Below are positions 53,065 through 60,941 of a stretch of DNA of 64,000 nt, piece by piece. The position numbers and the translations under genes are program-made. The DNA comes from Kushneria avicenniae (GTDB lineage: Bacteria > Pseudomonadota > Gammaproteobacteria > Pseudomonadales > Halomonadaceae). The notes under the pieces are model-generated. The model was not told the origin of the DNA. It did no database searches and was given only the letters and a program-made list of their open reading frames with translations. The stretch is from assembly GCF_900112585.1 (NCBI RefSeq), contig NZ_FOLY01000001.1, forward strand, positions 558,001-622,000, given 5' to 3'. Positions within the stretch are counted from its first letter, which is position 1, and the number at the start of each line of letters is the position of its first letter.

Positions 53065-53088
53065 GCCCTGACGTGGAAGCGTCAGGGC
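53065..53088. terminator. Hairpin between two convergent genes
   Basis: GCCCTGACG / CGTCAGGGC 9-bp stem with a 6-base loop. It overlaps the last codons of the minus-strand hydrolase gene and lies 17 bases after the aldo/keto reductase stop. A second small GGCGG / CCGCC hairpin adjoins it. There is no T-run. Confidence 0.5.
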
Positions 53089-54104
53089 TCGGCGCGCGCC
53101 TGCCATGCCTCCACGGCATGTTCGGCGTCCTCGAGCTCGTGAAAACGGGCAATATGGAAAACCGCCTCCCCTTCATTGACCAGCGGCAGGTTGCTCATGC
53201 CGATCACGATGCCGTCGCTGGAAGCCAGCACGTCTCCTTCTTCATTGCCGAAGGGACCGGCCACAATGCCCAGTCGCTCGCCCTTGACGACCCGCGCGCC
53301 CAGCCTGACCCGCGGTCGCAACACGCCGTCGATCGGCGCACGCGCCCAGCTCGAACTACGGGCTACCTCGGAGGCCGGCACCCTACTACCACGACCGAGC
53401 GGCAGCATGTCCAGCAATCGCATCACCCTCAGCACGCCGCGCACGCCGGCACTGATGGCCCATTCGTCAAAACGCAGCGCCTCCCCGGCTTCATAGGTCA
53501 GCACCGGAATGCCGCGCCGCTCGGCGTACTCCCGCAGGCTGCCACCGCGCAGCTCGGCATTGAGAATGACGGGCGCGCCAAAGGCATCCGCCATGGCGCG
53601 GGTCTGCTCATTGCGCTCAAGCTGGGCGCGAATCTGTGGCAGATTGGTACGATGAATGGCACCGGTATGCAGATCCAGAATATGGGTGGCCAGATCCACC
53701 ACCTGCTCGCGAAAGAGTGCCGCAATACGCGAGCCCAGCGATCCCGACTCGCTGCCCGGAAAGCAGCGGTTCAGATCGCGCCGGTCCGGCAGATAGCGGC
53801 TGTGCTGTACAAAGCCGAACACGTTGACGATCGGCACGGCAATCAGGGTACCTCGCAGCCGTGACAGCGAGCTGGTCCTGAGAACGCGCCGGACGATTTC
53901 CACGCCGTTGATCTCATCGCCATGGATGGCACCACATACCAGCATGATGGGCCCCGCCCGGCGGCCGTGCACAACCTCGACCGGAATATTGAGTGGCGTA
54001 TGGGTATAAAGACGTGCCACCGGAACATCAATCTGGCGGCGCTGACCGGGAAGAACGGTCTCCCCGGCCAGAACAAAAGCATCACGGGCCATGGAAATAC
54101 TCAT
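53082..54104 (-). CDS. Succinylglutamate desuccinylase / aspartoacylase family zinc hydrolase
   Basis: A 340-residue member of the AstE/AspA metallopeptidase-like family. The zinc ligands His and Glu are in CGAIHGDEINGVE (about 57-69). DLNRCFPG (about 109-116) is the substrate Arg motif, ILDLHTG (about 142-148) provides the third ligand, and TYEAGE (about 203-208) the catalytic Glu. A C-terminal beta domain (about 250-340) follows. The natural substrate is not defined; family members cleave N-acyl amino acids. It lies 50 bases after the CDP-alcohol transferase gene and may be co-transcribed with it. Confidence 0.88.
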   Translation of the reverse strand: MSISMARDAFVLAGETVLPGQRRQIDVPVARLYTHTPLNIPVEVVHGRRAGPIMLVCGAIHGDEINGVEIVRRVLRTSSLSRLRGTLIAVPIVNVFGFVQHSRYLPDRRDLNRCFPGSESGSLGSRIAALFREQVVDLATHILDLHTGAIHRTNLPQIRAQLERNEQTRAMADAFGAPVILNAELRGGSLREYAERRGIPVLTYEAGEALRFDEWAISAGVRGVLRVMRLLDMLPLGRGSRVPASEVARSSSWARAPIDGVLRPRVRLGARVVKGERLGIVAGPFGNEEGDVLASSDGIVIGMSNLPLVNEGEAVFHIARFHELEDAEHAVEAWQARAEP

Positions 54105-54154: not shown

Positions 54155-54910
54155 CTACCCGGAAATGCAGTCCCCACGGCCGGCGCGCTGATGCAGTCGG
54201 ACAACATCAATGGCAAAGGAGGTTGTCAGAAGCACCAGCGCCAGGGCCAGCAACAGGTTCGACCAGGGCGGCATCATCCAGGGCATCAGACAGACCATGA
54301 GGGTACTGACCTGCCAGACGCAGATGGTCTTGCGGCGATAGCTGATCGGCAGCTCGCCATCGAGCCATGACCAGCACCAGGCGGCGCCCACGAACAGATA
54401 GCGCATCGCCCCGATGGCCATGATCCAGACGCCGGCCTTGTCCTGAATCACCAGCATCAGACACAGCATCAGGATAAAAAAGGCATCCAGCTCCATGTCC
54501 AGCCGCGCCCCGAAACGGCTCTCGCAGTGCATCCGCCGCGCCACGAAACCGTCCACACCATCCAGTGCCAGCGCCGTCAGGGCCAAAGCAAACACCAGAA
54601 AATGATGCTCATTGATAAAATCGGTCAGCGGGATCATGGCCGTCAGCAGTACGATCAGCACCGCTCGCGTCAACGTCACGCGATTGGCCCAGCCAAGGCG
54701 CTGCCGGCTCGCCGGCCACCCATATACCATGGCAGCGATCAGCGCCAGATACACCCCACCGGCCACGGGATAAAGCAGGACCGGCGCCTCATGGACAAGG
54801 TGCAAAAGCGCCGCCAGCAGCATCAGAGCGGTAAATCCGACCAGGAATTCTCCCAGCACGCCGGGAGCAGGCCATGCAAACTGACGTATGGCGATCCGCT
54901 GTCCACTCAT
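54155..54910 (-). CDS. CDP-alcohol phosphatidyltransferase family protein
   Basis: A 251-residue membrane enzyme with about seven helices. The complete catalytic motif is present: Asp117, Asp120, Gly121, Ala124, Arg125, then Asp138 and Asp142. Such enzymes replace CMP of a CDP-alcohol, usually CDP-diacylglycerol, with an alcohol acceptor. An extra N-terminal portion (about 1-75) with two helices precedes the core. It is divergent from the pterin-like cluster across 289 bases that hold no gene. A role in that cluster, such as making a lipid headgroup, is possible but unproven. Confidence 0.88.
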   Translation of the reverse strand: MSGQRIAIRQFAWPAPGVLGEFLVGFTALMLLAALLHLVHEAPVLLYPVAGGVYLALIAAMVYGWPASRQRLGWANRVTLTRAVLIVLLTAMIPLTDFINEHHFLVFALALTALALDGVDGFVARRMHCESRFGARLDMELDAFFILMLCLMLVIQDKAGVWIMAIGAMRYLFVGAAWCWSWLDGELPISYRRKTICVWQVSTLMVCLMPWMMPPWSNLLLALALVLLTTSFAIDVVRLHQRAGRGDCISG

Positions 54911-55199
54911 GTCAGGACCTCCATTGCCCCGGCAGATCTCCCTGCCCTGTCACGCACGGTGCCCCCGGAGAGAACACACCATATTCATCGGTATATCATC
55001 ATATGGCAGGAATGCCGAACGCCATCATGATAATCCATGCTATTAATATAGCGGTTGTTTACCGCCTGTGGCATTGCGACGTGGGTCGTAACAATCGGGG
55101 GCAAGTCTTTGGTACCACAGCGAATCCATCGACAGGGTCTATACTTTGCTACGCCCTCGCTGGCACCGCATCACCCTTTCAATACGTACAGGGGCATCA

Positions 55200-56180
55200 A
55201 TGAGTCCGGACACCACTGCCCGCGCCTTCTGGGTCGAAACACCCGGACAGGGAAGCATTCGAACCCGGCCGCTTGCCACACCCGGCCCCGATGAGGTCAG
55301 GGTACGTGCCTGCTTCAGCGCCATCAGCCGGGGAACCGAAACCCTGGTGTTTCATGGGAGAGTTCCCGAAAGCGAACATGCCCGCATGCGCGCGCCCTTT
55401 CAGGAGGGCACGTTTCCAGCCCCGGTCAAATACGGCTATTCAAGCGTTGGCGTCGTTGAAGAAGGCCCGGAGGCACTCAGGGGCCGCTACGTGTTCTGCC
55501 TGCACCCGCATCAGGATCACTACATTGTTCCGGTCTCAATGGTCACACCGCTGCCCGAAGCGCTGCCGCCCGAACGCGCCGTGCTCGCCGCCAACATGGA
55601 AACGGCGCTCAACGGTCTCTGGGACGCTGCACCACGGATCGGTGATCGCGTTGCCGTAATCGGCGCCGGCGTGGTGGGGTCACTCATGGCCTGGCTGTGC
55701 CGCAATATCCCCGGCACCCGAGTCGAGCTGATTGATATCGATCCGTCGCGGCATGCCCTGGCACAGGCACTGGGCATCGACTTTTCCACGCCATCCCGGG
55801 CCCGGGGTGAATGCGACCTGGTCATTCATGCCAGTGGCAGCGAAGGCGGACTTCAACAGGCCCTGTCGCTTGCCGGCCAAGAAGCCACCATCATCGAAAT
55901 GAGCTGGTTCGGCAAGCAGTCCATCACCCTGCCGCTGGGAGAAGCCTTTCACTCGCGCCGGCTGACGCTGCGCGCAAGCCAGGTCGGTACGGTCTCGCCA
56001 TCCCGCGCGGCGCGACGTACCCATGCCGAGCGCATGGCGCAGGCGCTGTCGCTGCTGGAAGATGACCGGCTGGACGCCCTGATCGATGCCGAGACACCCT
56101 TTGACGCGCTGCCCGAGACCATGGCGCGCGTGACCACCGAATCCGGCACCCTGTGTCACCGTATTCGTTATACCTCCTGA
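55200..56180 (+). CDS. Zinc-free MDR family dehydrogenase (BchC/TarJ-like)
   Basis: A 326-residue medium-chain dehydrogenase-like protein. The N-terminal motif [16 protein letters not shown] (about 41-56) is typical of the BchC-like subgroup, and the NAD(P) motif [14 protein letters not shown] is near 153-166. The structural zinc Cys cluster and the catalytic Cys/His ligands of true alcohol dehydrogenases are not present. ATG 55200 follows a weak leader. It is the first gene of a five-gene plus-strand set, 26 bases ahead of the PTPS-like gene. It presumably oxidises or reduces an intermediate of the pathway. Confidence 0.85.
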
Positions 56181-56206
56181 TTCACTGACCTTTCCGGAGT
56201 TCTGCC

Positions 56207-56605
56207 ATGTACAGTCTTACCGTTCGCGATCACGTCATGATCGCCCACAGCTTCAACGGCCAGATCTTCGGCCCGGCCCAGAAGCTGCACGGCGCCACCT
56301 ACATCGTGGACGTCACCTTCAAGCGGCCGGAACTTGATCAGGACGACCTGATCGTCGATATCGGCCTGGCCAGCCAGACGCTGTCGGACGTGCTGAGCGA
56401 TATCAACATGCAAAACCTTGACGAGATCGAAGAGTTCAAGGGACGCAACACCACCACCGAATTCATGGCGCGGGTCATCTTTGATCGCATGGCTGCCTCG
56501 ATCGAAGCCGATCAGCTGGGCGATACCGGCAAGGGGCTGACGGCGCTGAGCGTGACCCTGCACGAATCCCACATTGCCTGGGCCAGCTACGAAGGGTCGC
56601 TATGA
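56207..56605 (+). CDS. 6-pyruvoyl-tetrahydropterin synthase / QueD-like protein missing catalytic residues
   Basis: A 132-residue tunnel-fold protein of QueD/PTPS length. The zinc-ligand region reads IAHSF (His14) and LHGATY (His28), where active members have HGH; Ala30 replaces the third His. The catalytic Cys just before LHG is absent (GPAQKLHG), and the His/Asp dyad stretch is NMQNLD instead of the usual LDHxxLN. The pterin-anchoring Glu is kept in VTLHESHIAW (about 116-125). It probably binds a pterin-like ligand but does another reaction, or acts as a binding protein. ATG 56207 has GGAG upstream; the stop overlaps the GT4 start. Confidence 0.78.
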   Translation: MYSLTVRDHVMIAHSFNGQIFGPAQKLHGATYIVDVTFKRPELDQDDLIVDIGLASQTLSDVLSDINMQNLDEIEEFKGRNTTTEFMARVIFDRMAASIEADQLGDTGKGLTALSVTLHESHIAWASYEGSL

Positions 56606-57693
56606 GCATCGAGCGCTGCGTACGCCGCCTGACGCTGATCGTTGCCGGGCGGCCGGACCAGCTGACCGGCGGCTATATCTACGATCGGCGCATTGTCGAA
56701 GCACTGCGCAATATCGACATTCATGTCGAGGTCATCGGCCTGGACGGACGCTTCCCGTGGCCGGATGACATTGCCCGTGAGTCGCTGCAGCGCGCGCTGG
56801 GCGGCTGCACCGATCGCAGTCTGGTGGTCGTTGACGGTCTGGCCGCCAGCGCCATGCCCGACGTGCTGGCGGTGCACGCCCATCGTCTGACGCTGGTGGC
56901 CCTGATTCACCACCCGCTGGGCGATGAAACCGGCCTTGATGACGACCAGCGCCGGACGCTGCTGGAACTGGAGTGTCAGGCGCTGCAGTCGGCTGCCGGC
57001 ATTATCGTCACCAGCGCCTTTACCCGTCGCCGACTGATCGAGCTGGGTGTGGACGATAATCGCATCAGCGTGATCGAGCCCGGCATTACCCCGGTGCCGG
57101 TGGCACCGGTCGACAATGACGTGCCGCGTCTTCTGTGTATTGCCACCCTGATTCCGCGCAAGGGCCAGCATCTGCTGCTCGAGGCACTGGCCGATCTCAA
57201 ATCACATGACTGGCACTGTGACCTGGTCGGCGATGACACGCGCGACGAGCGCTATACCGAGCGGCTTCGCGATCTGATCATCGAGCATCAGCTTGAGCAG
57301 CGCGTCACGCTTCACGGCGCACTACCGCCGGAGGCGCTGGAAGCACACTGGCAGCAGAGCGACCTGTTTGTCCTGCCCTCTTTCTATGAAGGTTACGGCA
57401 TGGTCATCACAGAGGCGCTGGCACACGGCCTGCCGGTGGTCACGACCACTGGCGGCGCTCTGGCTGACACGCTGCCTGCCAGTGCCGGTCTTCACGTGCC
57501 GCCTGATGACGTCTCAGCCCTGCGTGAAGCGCTGCGCACGCTGCTGTTTGATGATACCGGCACGCACAGTGCGCAGTATCAGACCCTGCGACAGGGGGCA
57601 CTCAAGGCTCGCGAAACCCTCAACGACTGGCCACGTGCCGCCGGCGCCTTTTTGGACTGCCTGAATCGACTGCACGCCAGCGCGGCGTCCTGA
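56602..57693 (+). CDS. Glycosyltransferase family 4 protein in the PTPS-like cluster
   Basis: A 363-residue GT-B glycosyltransferase. The acceptor lobe starts VAGRPDQLTGGYIYDRRIVEAL, and the donor lobe holds CIATLIPRKGQHLLLEAL (about 178-195) and the E-x7-E motif FYEGYGMVITEALAHGLPVV (about 261-280). The start overlaps the PTPS-like stop (ATGA), so translation is coupled. It would add a sugar to the product of the upstream enzymes. Neither sugar donor nor acceptor can be read from the sequence. Confidence 0.88.
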   Translation: MSIERCVRRLTLIVAGRPDQLTGGYIYDRRIVEALRNIDIHVEVIGLDGRFPWPDDIARESLQRALGGCTDRSLVVVDGLAASAMPDVLAVHAHRLTLVALIHHPLGDETGLDDDQRRTLLELECQALQSAAGIIVTSAFTRRRLIELGVDDNRISVIEPGITPVPVAPVDNDVPRLLCIATLIPRKGQHLLLEALADLKSHDWHCDLVGDDTRDERYTERLRDLIIEHQLEQRVTLHGALPPEALEAHWQQSDLFVLPSFYEGYGMVITEALAHGLPVVTTTGGALADTLPASAGLHVPPDDVSALREALRTLLFDDTGTHSAQYQTLRQGALKARETLNDWPRAAGAFLDCLNRLHASAAS

Positions 57694-57708
57694 CCGGAGC
57701 CCTTGCCG

Positions 57709-58647
57709 ATGCGCACACCGTCTCACAACGACATGCCTCACAGGGACATGCCTCACAGCGATATGGCCACACACAGTGATTTCAGCGCGTCGTGGCTGGC
57801 GCTGCGTGAGGCAGCTGATCATCGTGCCCGCGACGACCAGCAGCTACTGATCAACACCTGTCGAGACTGGCTGGCCTCGCGTCCGCACCAGAGCGATCTA
57901 CAGCTGCTGGACCTGGGCTGTGGCAGCGGCAGCAATCTGCGCTATCTCGCCTCTCGCCTGCCGCCACGTCAGCACTGGATCCTGATCGACCAGGACCCGG
58001 ACCTGCTGGCACACGCCCGCGACGATGGTCGCCCTCCTCATGGAAACATCATCGATATCGACTGTCGGACGCGCAATCTGTTCGATCTGGATCAAGCCTT
58101 GCCGCACCATGTGCTGGCAGACACCGATATCGTGACCGCCTCGGCCCTGCTGGATCTGGTTTCAAAACCGTGGCTCGAGACATTGATCAAACGATGTGCC
58201 TCTCATCAATGCGTACTCTGGCTGGCCATGAGCATCGATGGCGATAACGTCCTGATCGATCGCAAGGACCGCAGCGTCGATGCTGATCTACTGGCAATGG
58301 ACCAACGAGTGCAGCAGTTGATTCGCGCCCATCAACAGCGAGACAAGGGCTTCAATGGCGCACTGGGCACGCAGGCGCCAACGGTGGCCGCTGACCTGCT
58401 CACGCAGGCCGGCTACCGGGTCATCAAGACCCGTTCGCTCTGGCGGCTCGATGGCTCTGATCCCGACCAGGCGCTTTTGGCAAGGGCGCTCGTTCAGGGC
58501 TGGCTGGAGGCGGCGCTGGAGCAGTCCCCCGAAGAGCGTGAGGCCCTGATGACGTGGCACGAAAACCGTCAGCGCGATATCGCCGATGGCCGTCTGACCA
58601 TCACCGTGGGACATACCGATCTGTTCGCCGTGCCCGGGGTGTCATGA
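57709..58647 (+). CDS. Class I SAM-dependent methyltransferase with a repetitive N-terminus
   Basis: A 312-residue Rossmann-fold methyltransferase. SAM motif I LLDLGCGSG is at 66-74 and the acidic motif II LIDQDPDLLAHA near 88-99; ASALLDLVSKPWLE (about 142-155) corresponds to motif post-IV. The first 25 residues are built from a short repeated unit rich in Asp, Met, Pro and His (DMPHRDMPHSDM). ATG 57709 lies 9 bases after GGAG; TTG 57703 is possible. It overlaps the following UPF0104 gene by 4 bases. The acceptor is unknown; its place after the GT4 suggests methylation of the same small molecule. Confidence 0.88.
   Translation: MRTPSHNDMPHRDMPHSDMATHSDFSASWLALREAADHRARDDQQLLINTCRDWLASRPHQSDLQLLDLGCGSGSNLRYLASRLPPRQHWILIDQDPDLLAHARDDGRPPHGNIIDIDCRTRNLFDLDQALPHHVLADTDIVTASALLDLVSKPWLETLIKRCASHQCVLWLAMSIDGDNVLIDRKDRSVDADLLAMDQRVQQLIRAHQQRDKGFNGALGTQAPTVAADLLTQAGYRVIKTRSLWRLDGSDPDQALLARALVQGWLEAALEQSPEEREALMTWHENRQRDIADGRLTITVGHTDLFAVPGVS
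57730..57774 (+). repeat. Three 15-bp tandem repeats at the 5' end of the methyltransferase gene
   Basis: Units GACATGCCTCACAGG (57730-57744) and GACATGCCTCACAGC (57745-57759) differ at one base. A third, GATATGGCCACACAC, is diverged. The 15-bp unit keeps the reading frame, so copy-number change would add or remove five residues. Confidence 0.75.
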
Positions 58648-59636
58648 GTACTGACGGCGCTCAAAGCACAGCCGGCCGCCGGCGAGGCTGTCATCGCCTG
58701 CTGAACACCACGCTGGCGCGCTGGACGCTGGCCCTGCTCATGCTGGGCGGCGTTGCCTGGCTGGTGGATTCCGGCGATCTGCTGGCTCGACTGAGCGATC
58801 TTTCTCCAGCATGGCTGATGCTGGCACTGCTGATCTCGGTGCCGCAGATCATGCTGTCCGCCTGGCGGTGGCGCCTGACCGCGCGTCACATCGGGCTCAC
58901 GCTCCCCCTGCCGACTGCCATCCGCGAATACTATCTATCAACCTTTCTCAATCAGATACTGCCGGGCGGGGTCACGGGGGATCTGGGACGGGCCTGGCGC
59001 CATGGCGCTCGGGGCGCCACCCACGGCGCGGCGCTGCGAGCGGTCATTATCGAACGTGCCTCGGGGCAGGTCGCACTCCTGATGGTCGCCATCGCCACAC
59101 TGCTGCTGTTTACCCCGCTTCGTGAAGGGGTCATCGCGCATGTTTCCCGGGCCAACGCCGTACTGCATGACCACACCGATATCCCTCATGCGCTGATCTA
59201 CGTGGGAATACTTGTAATACTGGCGATCGGAACAGGTATCTGTCGGCACTCGCCACGATGGCTGAGCGCCCTGCGATGGGATCTGCGACGCGGCCTCTGG
59301 AATCAAAGGCTGTGGCTGCGCCAGCTGACAAGCTCGCTGGCCATCGTGTTGAGCTACGTACTGGTATTTGTCTGCTGCACCAGAGCACTTGGGGAGACGC
59401 TATCAGTCACTGCCGTCATGGCGCTGACACCACCGGTGCTGATGGCAATGGCCATCCCGCTCTCGGTAGCAGGCTGGGGGATCAGGGAGAGCGCAGCGGC
59501 GCTGATCTGGATGCTGGCCGGTCTTCCCGCCCAGCAGGGCGTGGCCATTTCGATGACCTACGGGGCCATCATACTGCTGTCGAGTCTACCGGGTGCCGTC
59601 GTCATGCTGATGGGGCGGCACACACGGTCAGGGTAA
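58644..59636 (+). CDS. UPF0104 / lysylphosphatidylglycerol synthase TM-region protein in the PTPS-like cluster
   Basis: A 330-residue membrane protein with about eight helices. Family features are YYLSTFLNQILPGGVTGDLGRAWR (about 94-117) and MAIPLSVAGWGIRESAAALI (about 270-289). It lacks the GNAT-like domain that would transfer an amino acid. It probably translocates or accommodates a lipid-linked product. The 4-base overlap with the methyltransferase makes it the last of the five coupled genes. It is only distantly similar to the other UPF0104 protein at 22503-23519. Confidence 0.86.
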   Translation: MSTDGAQSTAGRRRGCHRLLNTTLARWTLALLMLGGVAWLVDSGDLLARLSDLSPAWLMLALLISVPQIMLSAWRWRLTARHIGLTLPLPTAIREYYLSTFLNQILPGGVTGDLGRAWRHGARGATHGAALRAVIIERASGQVALLMVAIATLLLFTPLREGVIAHVSRANAVLHDHTDIPHALIYVGILVILAIGTGICRHSPRWLSALRWDLRRGLWNQRLWLRQLTSSLAIVLSYVLVFVCCTRALGETLSVTAVMALTPPVLMAMAIPLSVAGWGIRESAAALIWMLAGLPAQQGVAISMTYGAIILLSSLPGAVVMLMGRHTRSG

Positions 59637-59665
59637 GCTTTCGACCGGGCGGGTCTGCGTCAACT

Positions 59666-59893
59666 TCAGGGCAGCATGTTGACAATACCGCTGTCTTCCT
59701 TGCCCTCCGGCTCGCTGGTGTCATCAGCACCGGCCTGCTCATCGCCGGGCATCTCGCGGGCCATCACGCCATTGGCGGCATCCTTTTGAAGATTCCACTG
59801 CTGCTCGTGTTTTGCCTGATTCATGGTCAGCCAGATACCTGACGCGACCAGCGACAAACCAAACAGCAGCGATACCAACCCTTTCACACTCAT
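59666..59893 (-). CDS. Small single-pass membrane protein, unknown
   Basis: A 75-residue protein: one N-terminal membrane helix or signal anchor (LVSLLFGLSLVASGIWLTM, about 6-24), then a hydrophilic, acidic tail rich in Glu, Asp and Gly. ATG 59893 has GGAG seven bases upstream, which makes it a credible gene. It lies 78 bases after the RibD-like gene on the same strand. No family was recognised. Confidence 0.6.
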   Translation of the reverse strand: MSVKGLVSLLFGLSLVASGIWLTMNQAKHEQQWNLQKDAANGVMAREMPGDEQAGADDTSEPEGKEDSGIVNMLP

Positions 59894-59971
59894 TTTCAGG
59901 CTCCGTTCAATGGCGGGGGGACTTTAGCATTTTCCCAGAGAATTAGTCATTGAAGACGCCAAAAAGAACGG

Positions 59972-60883
59972 TTAATTAATGCCTTTTTCCGCAGAAGTTG
60001 TAAATTCAAGATCAAAAAGAACATCATCTCCCAGCGTAAAGTGACGTGCTGGCGGGCGCATGGCCTGATTCAGAGTCTCGATCACCGGCAGTGTCAGCGA
60101 CGCCCGACCCGACCCGATGATCATGGGGGTTACCGTCATGTGCAGACGATCCAGACAGCCCCGTTGCAAGAACCGCGAAACGGTCATGCCGCCGCCCTCC
60201 ACCAGAACGCGGGGCAGGCCCCGACGCCTTAGCAGATCGATCACCGCCCCGGGGTCAACGCCCTCGTCACCGACATCAAGCCCGAGCACATCAACGTCAT
60301 GTCCGTGCTTCGCGTGGCAGGCCTGCCAGCACGCCACGTGCTCATGCCCCACCAGATGCAGGGTCGCGGCGCTGTCATCTTCAAACACGAACCGGTGTTC
60401 GGGCATGCGGCCCCGCGGATCAAGCACGACACGTACCGGATGCTTCCCCGTGACGTGACGCACGGTCAATCGTGGATCATCGGTGACCACGGTGCCTGCG
60501 CCGACCAGTACGGCATCCACCACGGCCCGCAGTGCGTGCAGATGAACCAGCCCCTCCTGTCCCGTCACGTAATAGGATGCGCCGCACTGAGTGGCGATAC
60601 GCCCGTCCAGACTCTGTCCCAGCTGCGCCATGACCAGCGGTGTCGTGCGCGCCACCAGTGGCAGCATGATGTCCAGAAGCTGCGCTGCGGCCTCGTCGAT
60701 GGCACCGCTACAGTGCCACGTCCCGCCGGCCGTTATTGACATCGTGTCGTACTGACAGGTCTGTCCGACCTGCCAGTCGAATCGACGGGCGCGCAGGACA
60801 AGCTCCCAGGCCTGCATTCTGGAAAGAGGCGTCGCTGCCATGAATGATGGTTCCCCTGCTGCGTTGCTGATCCGGCCCGTCAT
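59972..60883 (-). CDS. RibD C-terminal-domain (pyrimidine/pteridine reductase-like) protein
   Basis: A 303-residue protein. Residues about 80-300 form the dihydrofolate-reductase-like RibD reductase fold: MAQLGQSLDGRIAT (about 84-97), DAVLVGAGTVVTDDPRLTVR (about 123-142) and RVLVEGGGMTVSRFL (about 227-241). The first 80 residues are a small extra domain without the zinc deaminase motif of full RibD. It should reduce a pyrimidine or pterin-type carbonyl with NADPH. It converges on the five-gene cluster and is probably part of the same pathway. ATG 60883 follows GGGAGTGGAG; ATG 60841 is an alternative start. Confidence 0.83.
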   Translation of the reverse strand: MTGRISNAAGEPSFMAATPLSRMQAWELVLRARRFDWQVGQTCQYDTMSITAGGTWHCSGAIDEAAAQLLDIMLPLVARTTPLVMAQLGQSLDGRIATQCGASYYVTGQEGLVHLHALRAVVDAVLVGAGTVVTDDPRLTVRHVTGKHPVRVVLDPRGRMPEHRFVFEDDSAATLHLVGHEHVACWQACHAKHGHDVDVLGLDVGDEGVDPGAVIDLLRRRGLPRVLVEGGGMTVSRFLQRGCLDRLHMTVTPMIIGSGRASLTLPVIETLNQAMRPPARHFTLGDDVLFDLEFTTSAEKGIN

Positions 60884-60941
60884 GGAAAGCTCCACTCCCT
60901 GACGTTACATGCGACCGCGTCGTGTCTTTATAAGCAATAAT

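Follow-up and report, generated by a model that had tools for sequence, protein, structure and literature searches.

A cluster of seven genes at positions 54155-60895 of the window (the whole 64,000-nucleotide stretch of Kushneria avicenniae DNA analysed here, contig C8, positions 558001-622000, from a genome of 3.6 Mb) is a genuine biosynthetic cluster, uncharacterised, widespread and in part carried on plasmids. It is built around a protein of the pterin-synthase (PTPS) fold which, by its FGPAQ signature, belongs to the PTPS-IV subfamily of COG0720. We are close to evenly divided on whether GTP is converted by the cluster, through a branch off the riboflavin route, into a pterin-like compound; the product would probably be a pterin-like molecule that carries a sugar and a methyl group and is perhaps joined to a membrane lipid. 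Among open-licence papers, none on the whole cluster was found. A five-gene plus-strand operon is flanked by two minus-strand genes, as follows.

54155..54910, minus strand: CDP-alcohol phosphatidyltransferase, assigned to the membrane module (PF01066, E 1.4e-16)
55200..56180, plus strand: medium-chain dehydrogenase/reductase (MDR), the operon's first gene, with S-R-G-T-E where the zinc cysteine is expected
56207..56605, plus strand: PTPS-IV, a Cys-less T-fold protein with the FGPAQ motif and Glu120 retained (PF01242, E 9e-24; PDB 3d7j)
56602..57693, plus strand: GT4 glycosyltransferase (PF00534, E 9e-31)
57703..58647, plus strand: class I S-adenosylmethionine-dependent methyltransferase (family match)
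58644..59636, plus strand: UPF0104 / LPG_synthase_TM flippase-like membrane protein, assigned to the membrane module (PF03706, E 7e-37)
59972..60895, minus strand: RibD-type reductase (PF01872, E 2e-36)

The initial annotation had named seven genes of these families at these places and described the plus-strand genes as tightly packed, with three of four junctions under 16 bases. Reading frames, family matches and the measured junctions bear this out: the first and third junctions are gaps of 26 and 9 bases, and the second and fourth are 4-base ATGA overlaps, the last of which joins the methyltransferase and UPF0104 genes. The CDP-alcohol transferase gene lies 289 bases upstream of the operon and is divergent from it, and the RibD-type gene lies 335 bases downstream and is convergent. 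The MDR label also holds, for although the Pfam match is weak (19.8 bits against a cut-off of 31.8), the predicted model shows the MDR fold. Comparison with four Kushneria loci gave dN/dS values of 0.015 to 0.39 for eight genes, the cluster's seven and an AstE-like neighbour. A possible short minus-strand reading frame, seen by eye, occupies 59660-59895 between the UPF0104 and RibD genes.

When genome contigs were scanned with the PTPS protein, 516 relatives were returned, the best 80 of which (59-98% identity) were retained; the nearest named relatives in the scan were Kushneria species, with PTPS proteins 97-98% identical. Neighbours were counted using profiles built from those 80 loci, some of which have short flanks, and a second count was restricted to the 68 loci with long flanks. 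In the first count PTPS was present in 80 loci, MDR in 80, GT4 in 79, the methyltransferase in 76, the CDP-alcohol transferase in 69, UPF0104 and RibD in 62 each, GTP cyclohydrolase II in 55 and a creatininase-family protein in 50. The second gave MDR 68, GT4 68, methyltransferase 65, CDP-alcohol transferase 60, UPF0104 55, RibD 55, cyclohydrolase II 50 and creatininase 47. The initial annotation had proposed this conserved-neighbourhood analysis and had said that its reading would fall if the genes did not co-occur in other genomes; they do. Its remark that no GTP cyclohydrolase is near stands for the Kushneria locus and fails for the relatives, 55 of 80 of which carry one in their flanks.

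By record titles, the 80 loci come from Halomonadaceae genera, Marinobacter, Nisaea, Kiloniellales and Thiocapsa among the proteobacteria, and from Streptomyces, Amycolatopsis, Micromonospora, Actinoplanes and Actinomadura among the actinobacteria. The cluster, in close to the same gene order, is kept across Gammaproteobacteria, Alphaproteobacteria and Actinomycetota, and partially in Halobacteria. Two proteobacteria-like copies, in L054 (titled Natrialbaceae archaeon; 68% identity) and L056 (Pseudonocardia pini, depth 0.62x; 65% identity), may be contaminants. Three further neighbours were considered as members. The FkbM methyltransferase (18 of 80 loci) and the MdoH-like glucosyltransferase (17 of 80) were treated as lineage extras. 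The AstE/AspA-like gene at 53082-54104 was rejected: it occurs in 14 of 80 loci, by title 13 from genera that we take to belong to Halomonadaceae and one from an unplaced gammaproteobacterium, and is probably plain local synteny.

The cluster also occurs on plasmids. Thirty plasmid records had a PTPS match, and 14 of them were opened and searched with the cluster profiles; MDR and PTPS were found together in 10 of the 14. The mobilizable Microbacterium plasmid L198 (NZ_CP027930.2) carries all seven cluster genes side by side, and the mobilizable Streptomyces plasmid L251 (NZ_CP108665.1) carries the seven-gene set plus creatininase and cyclohydrolase II. Since both hold the full set, the cluster may be mobile as a whole. 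Two haloarchaeal plasmids carry MDR-PTPS-GT4 and a methyltransferase-like gene, below Pfam cut-offs in the one scanned (L099). On four further plasmids (L095, L200, L253 and L254), the PTPS-IV gene lies near BTAD-domain regulators and sigma factors.

To characterise the PTPS protein, 81 cluster proteins and four QueD proteins taken from relatives were placed in one alignment. The initial annotation had called this protein an altered PTPS, and the alignment agrees: Ala24 occupies the catalytic Cys position and Ala30 the position of the third zinc His in 81 of 81 proteins, while His14, His28 and Glu120 are retained in all. The catalytic, zinc and pterin-binding roles given to these residues are those we take them to have from general knowledge of the family. 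The FGPAQ motif comprises residues 21-25 of the Kushneria protein, with F21, G22, P23 and A24 in 81/81 and Q25 in 80/81. Compared with QueD (PTPS-I) and biopterin PTPS (PTPS-II), the protein shares the T-fold family, two of the three zinc His residues and Glu120, but the catalytic Cys and third zinc His are replaced and its gene has other neighbours. Neither diagnostic motif is present: in place of CxxxHGH (QueD/PTPS-I), Cys is Ala24 and HGH is HGA, and CxxxxxHGH (PTPS-II) is lacking, with no Cys ahead of HGA. The sole PDB match at E 0.001 was SCO6650 of Streptomyces coelicolor (3d7j; E 1e-50 over 131 residues), a member of the same family whose function is likewise not known. The zinc site and catalytic triad of SCO6650 have reportedly been lost and its pterin site kept.

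The FGPAQ signature defines PTPS-IV, cluster-node 62 of AGeNNT, in a 2017 study whose network held 561 PTPS-IV sequences (PMC5445326), and PF00925 and PF01872 were already reported there beside PTPS-IV. Of this pair, PF01872 (RibD_C) is present at the Kushneria cluster; PF00925 is absent there and present in 55 of 80 relatives, including K. sinocarnis (L024). The Kushneria family agrees with the published PTPS-IV in its FGPAQ motif, its PF01872 neighbour and, in most relatives, PF00925. To the part of PMC5445326 drawn on here, the present analysis adds the MDR, GT4, methyltransferase, CDP-alcohol transferase, UPF0104 and creatininase partners, the Cys criterion and a pathway.

This association was examined in two control samples. 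Matches to PTPS at E 1e-15 came from 37 of the 398 genomes sampled from Pseudomonadota and from 70 of the 396 sampled from the Streptomyces phylum; all 107 matches were inspected, with flanks as far as the contigs reach. Every readable Cys-less PTPS had an MDR gene within 1.5 kb (62/62), whereas for the 44 Cys-bearing proteins no MDR or GT4 gene lay within 1.5 kb and no RibD gene within 4.5 kb. In three of the Cys-bearing loci (L175, L177 and L184) cyclohydrolase II and a RibD-like gene do occur, at distances of about 5.4 and 7.1 kb. The PTPS of L244, a fragment cut by the contig end and missing the Cys region, is accompanied by GT4 and RibD. When it is counted with the Cys-less group (n = 63), 62 members have MDR, 59 have GT4 and 50 have RibD; the Fisher p for this grouping is 2e-29, with related genomes not independent. 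This control rejects a chance or hitchhiking association. At positions 24/30, the Pseudomonadota sample held 27 Ala/Ala proteins and 10 with Cys, and the Streptomyces-phylum sample 9 Ala/Ala, 24 Ala/His, 2 Glu/His, 34 with Cys and the one fragment. The Ala/His and Glu/His forms, in which the zinc His is kept, share the same neighbours, and so it is Cys loss, not zinc loss, that tracks with the cluster.

The genes that would act earliest were examined next to these partners. PF01872 is the sole Pfam match of the RibD-type protein, and no deaminase domain was matched in the Pfam scan. Against TIGR01508 (ArfC) it scores 109 bits, below the equivalog cut-off of 186, and its best PDB matches are 6p8c, named 2,5-diamino-6-ribosylamino-4(3H)-pyrimidinone 5'-phosphate (DARoPP) reductase, and 2azn. 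With RibD_C alone, and ArfC-type DARoPP reductases as its nearest solved relatives, the protein is by sequence ArfC-like. GTP cyclohydrolase II adjoins the RibD gene in relatives, and in L185 a single same-strand run comprises cyclohydrolase II, RibD reductase, MDR, PTPS, GT4 and methyltransferase. A PHP-domain gene lies past this run, beyond an opposite-strand frame; PHP-domain and alanyl-tRNA-editing-like genes recur near the compact actinobacterial cluster (L185:5346-6850, L171:6498-7936 and L172:14335-15045), called by Pfam in L185 and by eye in L171 and for the editing gene of L172.

Cyclohydrolase II and creatininase occur together in 44 of the 68 long-flank loci; 15 have neither, and six and three have only the former or the latter (Fisher 7e-8, uncorrected). 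As both belong to the wider cluster, GTP and a diaminopyrimidine are the suggested source. SCO6655 is said to make a formylated pyrimidine because Met replaces its switch Tyr. With Met or His at this position, creatininase was present in 18/18 loci, and with Tyr in 38/53, being absent from 15, in a tally that includes eight rows assigned by eye, five unassigned and a few short flanks. A rule by which the deformylase simply follows the Tyr/Met switch was thus rejected, since it holds one way only. BrbF of S. meliloti, a creatininase-family enzyme, deformylates the formyl form of DARoPP (PMC9478397). The cluster follows the same cyclohydrolase, creatininase-family deformylase and reductase logic as archaeal ArfA/ArfB/ArfC and bacterial BrbF; it differs from ArfA/ArfB/ArfC in scoring below the ArfB and ArfC cut-offs and in having MDR, PTPS and GT4 come after.

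Kushneria itself has two PF00925 proteins on other contigs, in open frames of 234 and 417 amino acids, the shorter with Tyr at the switch position. As these lie elsewhere and creatininase is absent, a housekeeping RibA may feed the pathway. RibD was sought elsewhere in 13 genomes without a local copy: in two (L068 and L070) another contig carries a 46% relative, L083 has a partial match (E 1e-16) and ten have only distant matches. A separate search with TIGR01508 could not distinguish paralogues. With no close RibD in those ten, the reduction step would not be universal.

The predicted MDR model resembles polyol dehydrogenases, which are among the top structural matches. Its S43 is present in 81/81 aligned proteins, and in a weak segment of 8 bits the stretch around Ser43 is aligned to the zinc Cys of 4oh1. 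The MDR scores 46 bits against the BchC profile, below the equivalog cut-off of 291. It is alike in fold to BchC and polyol dehydrogenases, with a weak BchC match and the zinc Cys replaced by Ser43. The GT4 residues E263 and E271 (E-x7-E) are found in 79/80 and 77/80 proteins, and six PDB sequences matched at E 1e-8, including phosphatidylinositol monomannoside mannosyltransferase. Neither the methyltransferase nor the CDP-alcohol transferase had a PDB sequence match at E 0.01, and a fold search with the former returned generic methyltransferases only. The best NCBIfam match of the CDP-alcohol transferase is PgsA (41.8 bits, below the cut-off of 109), and the motif D..DG..AR(7-9)G...D...D is present in 69/69 relatives and in the Kushneria protein. 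Among the 68 long-flank loci, 54 have both the CDP-alcohol transferase and UPF0104 and seven have neither, six and one having only the former or the latter. Since the two tend to come together and can be missing, we treat them as a membrane module; with their presence (60/68 and 55/68) set against that of MDR and GT4 (68/68 each), the lipid part seems to be an accessory and not part of the core.

From the observed gene set, linkage and residue changes we infer every reaction of the following route, its third, fourth and sixth steps being the least certain. First, GTP cyclohydrolase II would give DARoPP, supplied in Kushneria by the housekeeping RibA and in most relatives by a dedicated cluster enzyme with a creatininase-family formamidase. 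Second, the deaminase-free RibD-type reductase would turn the ribosyl into a ribityl chain, the 2-amino group staying in place. Third, MDR may oxidise a ribityl hydroxyl; were this at C2', the 5-amino group could close a ring to give 7,8-dihydroneopterin 3'-phosphate. Together, the second and third steps would stand in for the Amadori step that FolE performs internally. Fourth, PTPS-IV, which has the pterin-binding Glu and no catalytic Cys, may help ring closure or remodel the side chain. Fifth would come glycosylation by GT4 and methylation by the methyltransferase. Sixth, in the loci that have them, the CDP-alcohol transferase and UPF0104 may anchor the product to the membrane or carry it across. 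The linkage counts, the Cys control, the L185 run, the RibD and MDR resemblances, BrbF and Glu120 in 81/81 support this reading. The initial annotation had outlined one pathway to a reduced, glycosylated and methylated heterocyclic compound, perhaps lipid-linked. That outline fits the gene set and co-occurrence; it is revised in that cyclohydrolase II and creatininase join the wider cluster, the PTPS is the named PTPS-IV and the lipid part looks accessory. In its fullest form, the proposal is of a FolE-independent pterin route, in which a redox-neutral reduce-then-oxidise pair (the RibD-type reductase and the zinc-less MDR) would replace the Amadori rearrangement, PTPS-IV would close or trim the pterin, and a glycosylated, membrane-anchored pterin would result in bacteria and haloarchaea, partly plasmid-borne. 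We consider this whole chain rather unlikely to hold in every part.

Several observations weigh against the pterin reading. The 38 Tyr-type cyclohydrolases accompanied by creatininase do not need it under the switch rule. Three cluster creatininases that were scanned match MftE best, below cut-off, and against ArfB the same three gave weak matches in two cases and no match in one. No creatininase-family gene was found in the Kushneria genome, so the early steps rest on relatives. All ten tested actinobacterial genomes with a Met/His cyclohydrolase and no adjoining RibD have distant RibD matches only. The MDR is without the zinc Cys of true polyol dehydrogenases, and other alcohol dehydrogenases score about 2 Z units below these as structural matches. 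The four plasmids mentioned above (of 14, all from Streptomyces) carry PTPS-IV without other cluster genes in the stretch searched, and these lone copies count against a strict rule that PTPS-IV occurs with the cluster.

Among other explanations, a PTPS fold beside a glycosyltransferase recalls biopterin glucoside routes, and the product might be a glycosylated pterin derived from FolE-made dihydroneopterin, with cyclohydrolase II and RibD as bystanders serving riboflavin. The loci lacking cyclohydrolase II, RibD or both would suit this explanation. We find it unlikely, since these two genes recur across phyla and lie within one operon in L185, the deaminase domain that riboflavin needs was not matched, and the PTPS catalytic Cys is gone. 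Alternatively, a ribityl-pyrimidine 5'-phosphate might be joined to diacylglycerol and then glycosylated, methylated and flipped, with no pterin ring formed. PgsA/PIP-synthase-type transferases act on alcohol phosphates, and both the intact catalytic motif of the CDP-alcohol transferase and its co-occurrence with UPF0104 agree with such a diaminopyrimidine lipid. Yet the seven of 68 loci with neither membrane gene in their flanks keep MDR, PTPS, GT4 and RibD, and six of them also keep the methyltransferase; plasmid loci L097 (without GT4) and L100 likewise keep the rest without the membrane genes. As a PTPS-fold protein with a pterin Glu would also go unexplained, this too is an improbable account.

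We give still less weight to a deazaflavin or F420-type route, in which PTPS-IV would aid ribitylamino-pyrimidine chemistry toward a flavin-like cofactor. Archaeal flavin and F420 routes share a reductase and deformylase of this kind. The RibD gene nevertheless has no matched deaminase domain, and no FO-synthase or lumazine-synthase domain was present among the scanned neighbours, which were a selection. In favour of such a route, PMC5041015 gives, as an unpublished result, an involvement of PTPS-IV in the making of F420 by archaea.

Annotators mostly name this PTPS 6-carboxytetrahydropterin synthase, and the initial annotation had held that clustering of its gene with queC/queE, together with rescue of queuosine synthesis, would refute its reading. 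The genome's sole above-cut-off QueC match, at C8 230.9-231.5 kb, lies about 380 kb from the cluster, where L002 (C8:230754-234116) brings together queC, a queE-like frame (by eye) and a different PTPS homologue of 297 amino acids. Judged by eye, this homologue looks like a pair of T-fold units, with a CxxxxHGH stretch in the second one. No match to the QueD profile TIGR03367 reached the cut-off in the Kushneria genome. With the CxxxHGH motif lost and queC at a separate locus, a role of the cluster PTPS in queuosine or 7-deazapurine synthesis was rejected as highly improbable.

PTPS-IV is a large PTPS/QueD subfamily for which no published function was found, and its records still carry the label of a queuosine enzyme. 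It is now tied to a near-fixed partner set across phyla, and a one-residue test, the presence or absence of Cys, sorted all 106 readable proteins of the two phylum samples by neighbourhood. If the pterin reading is true, the cluster would represent a second way to pterins and a new class of pterin conjugates, perhaps a membrane redox or signalling compound.

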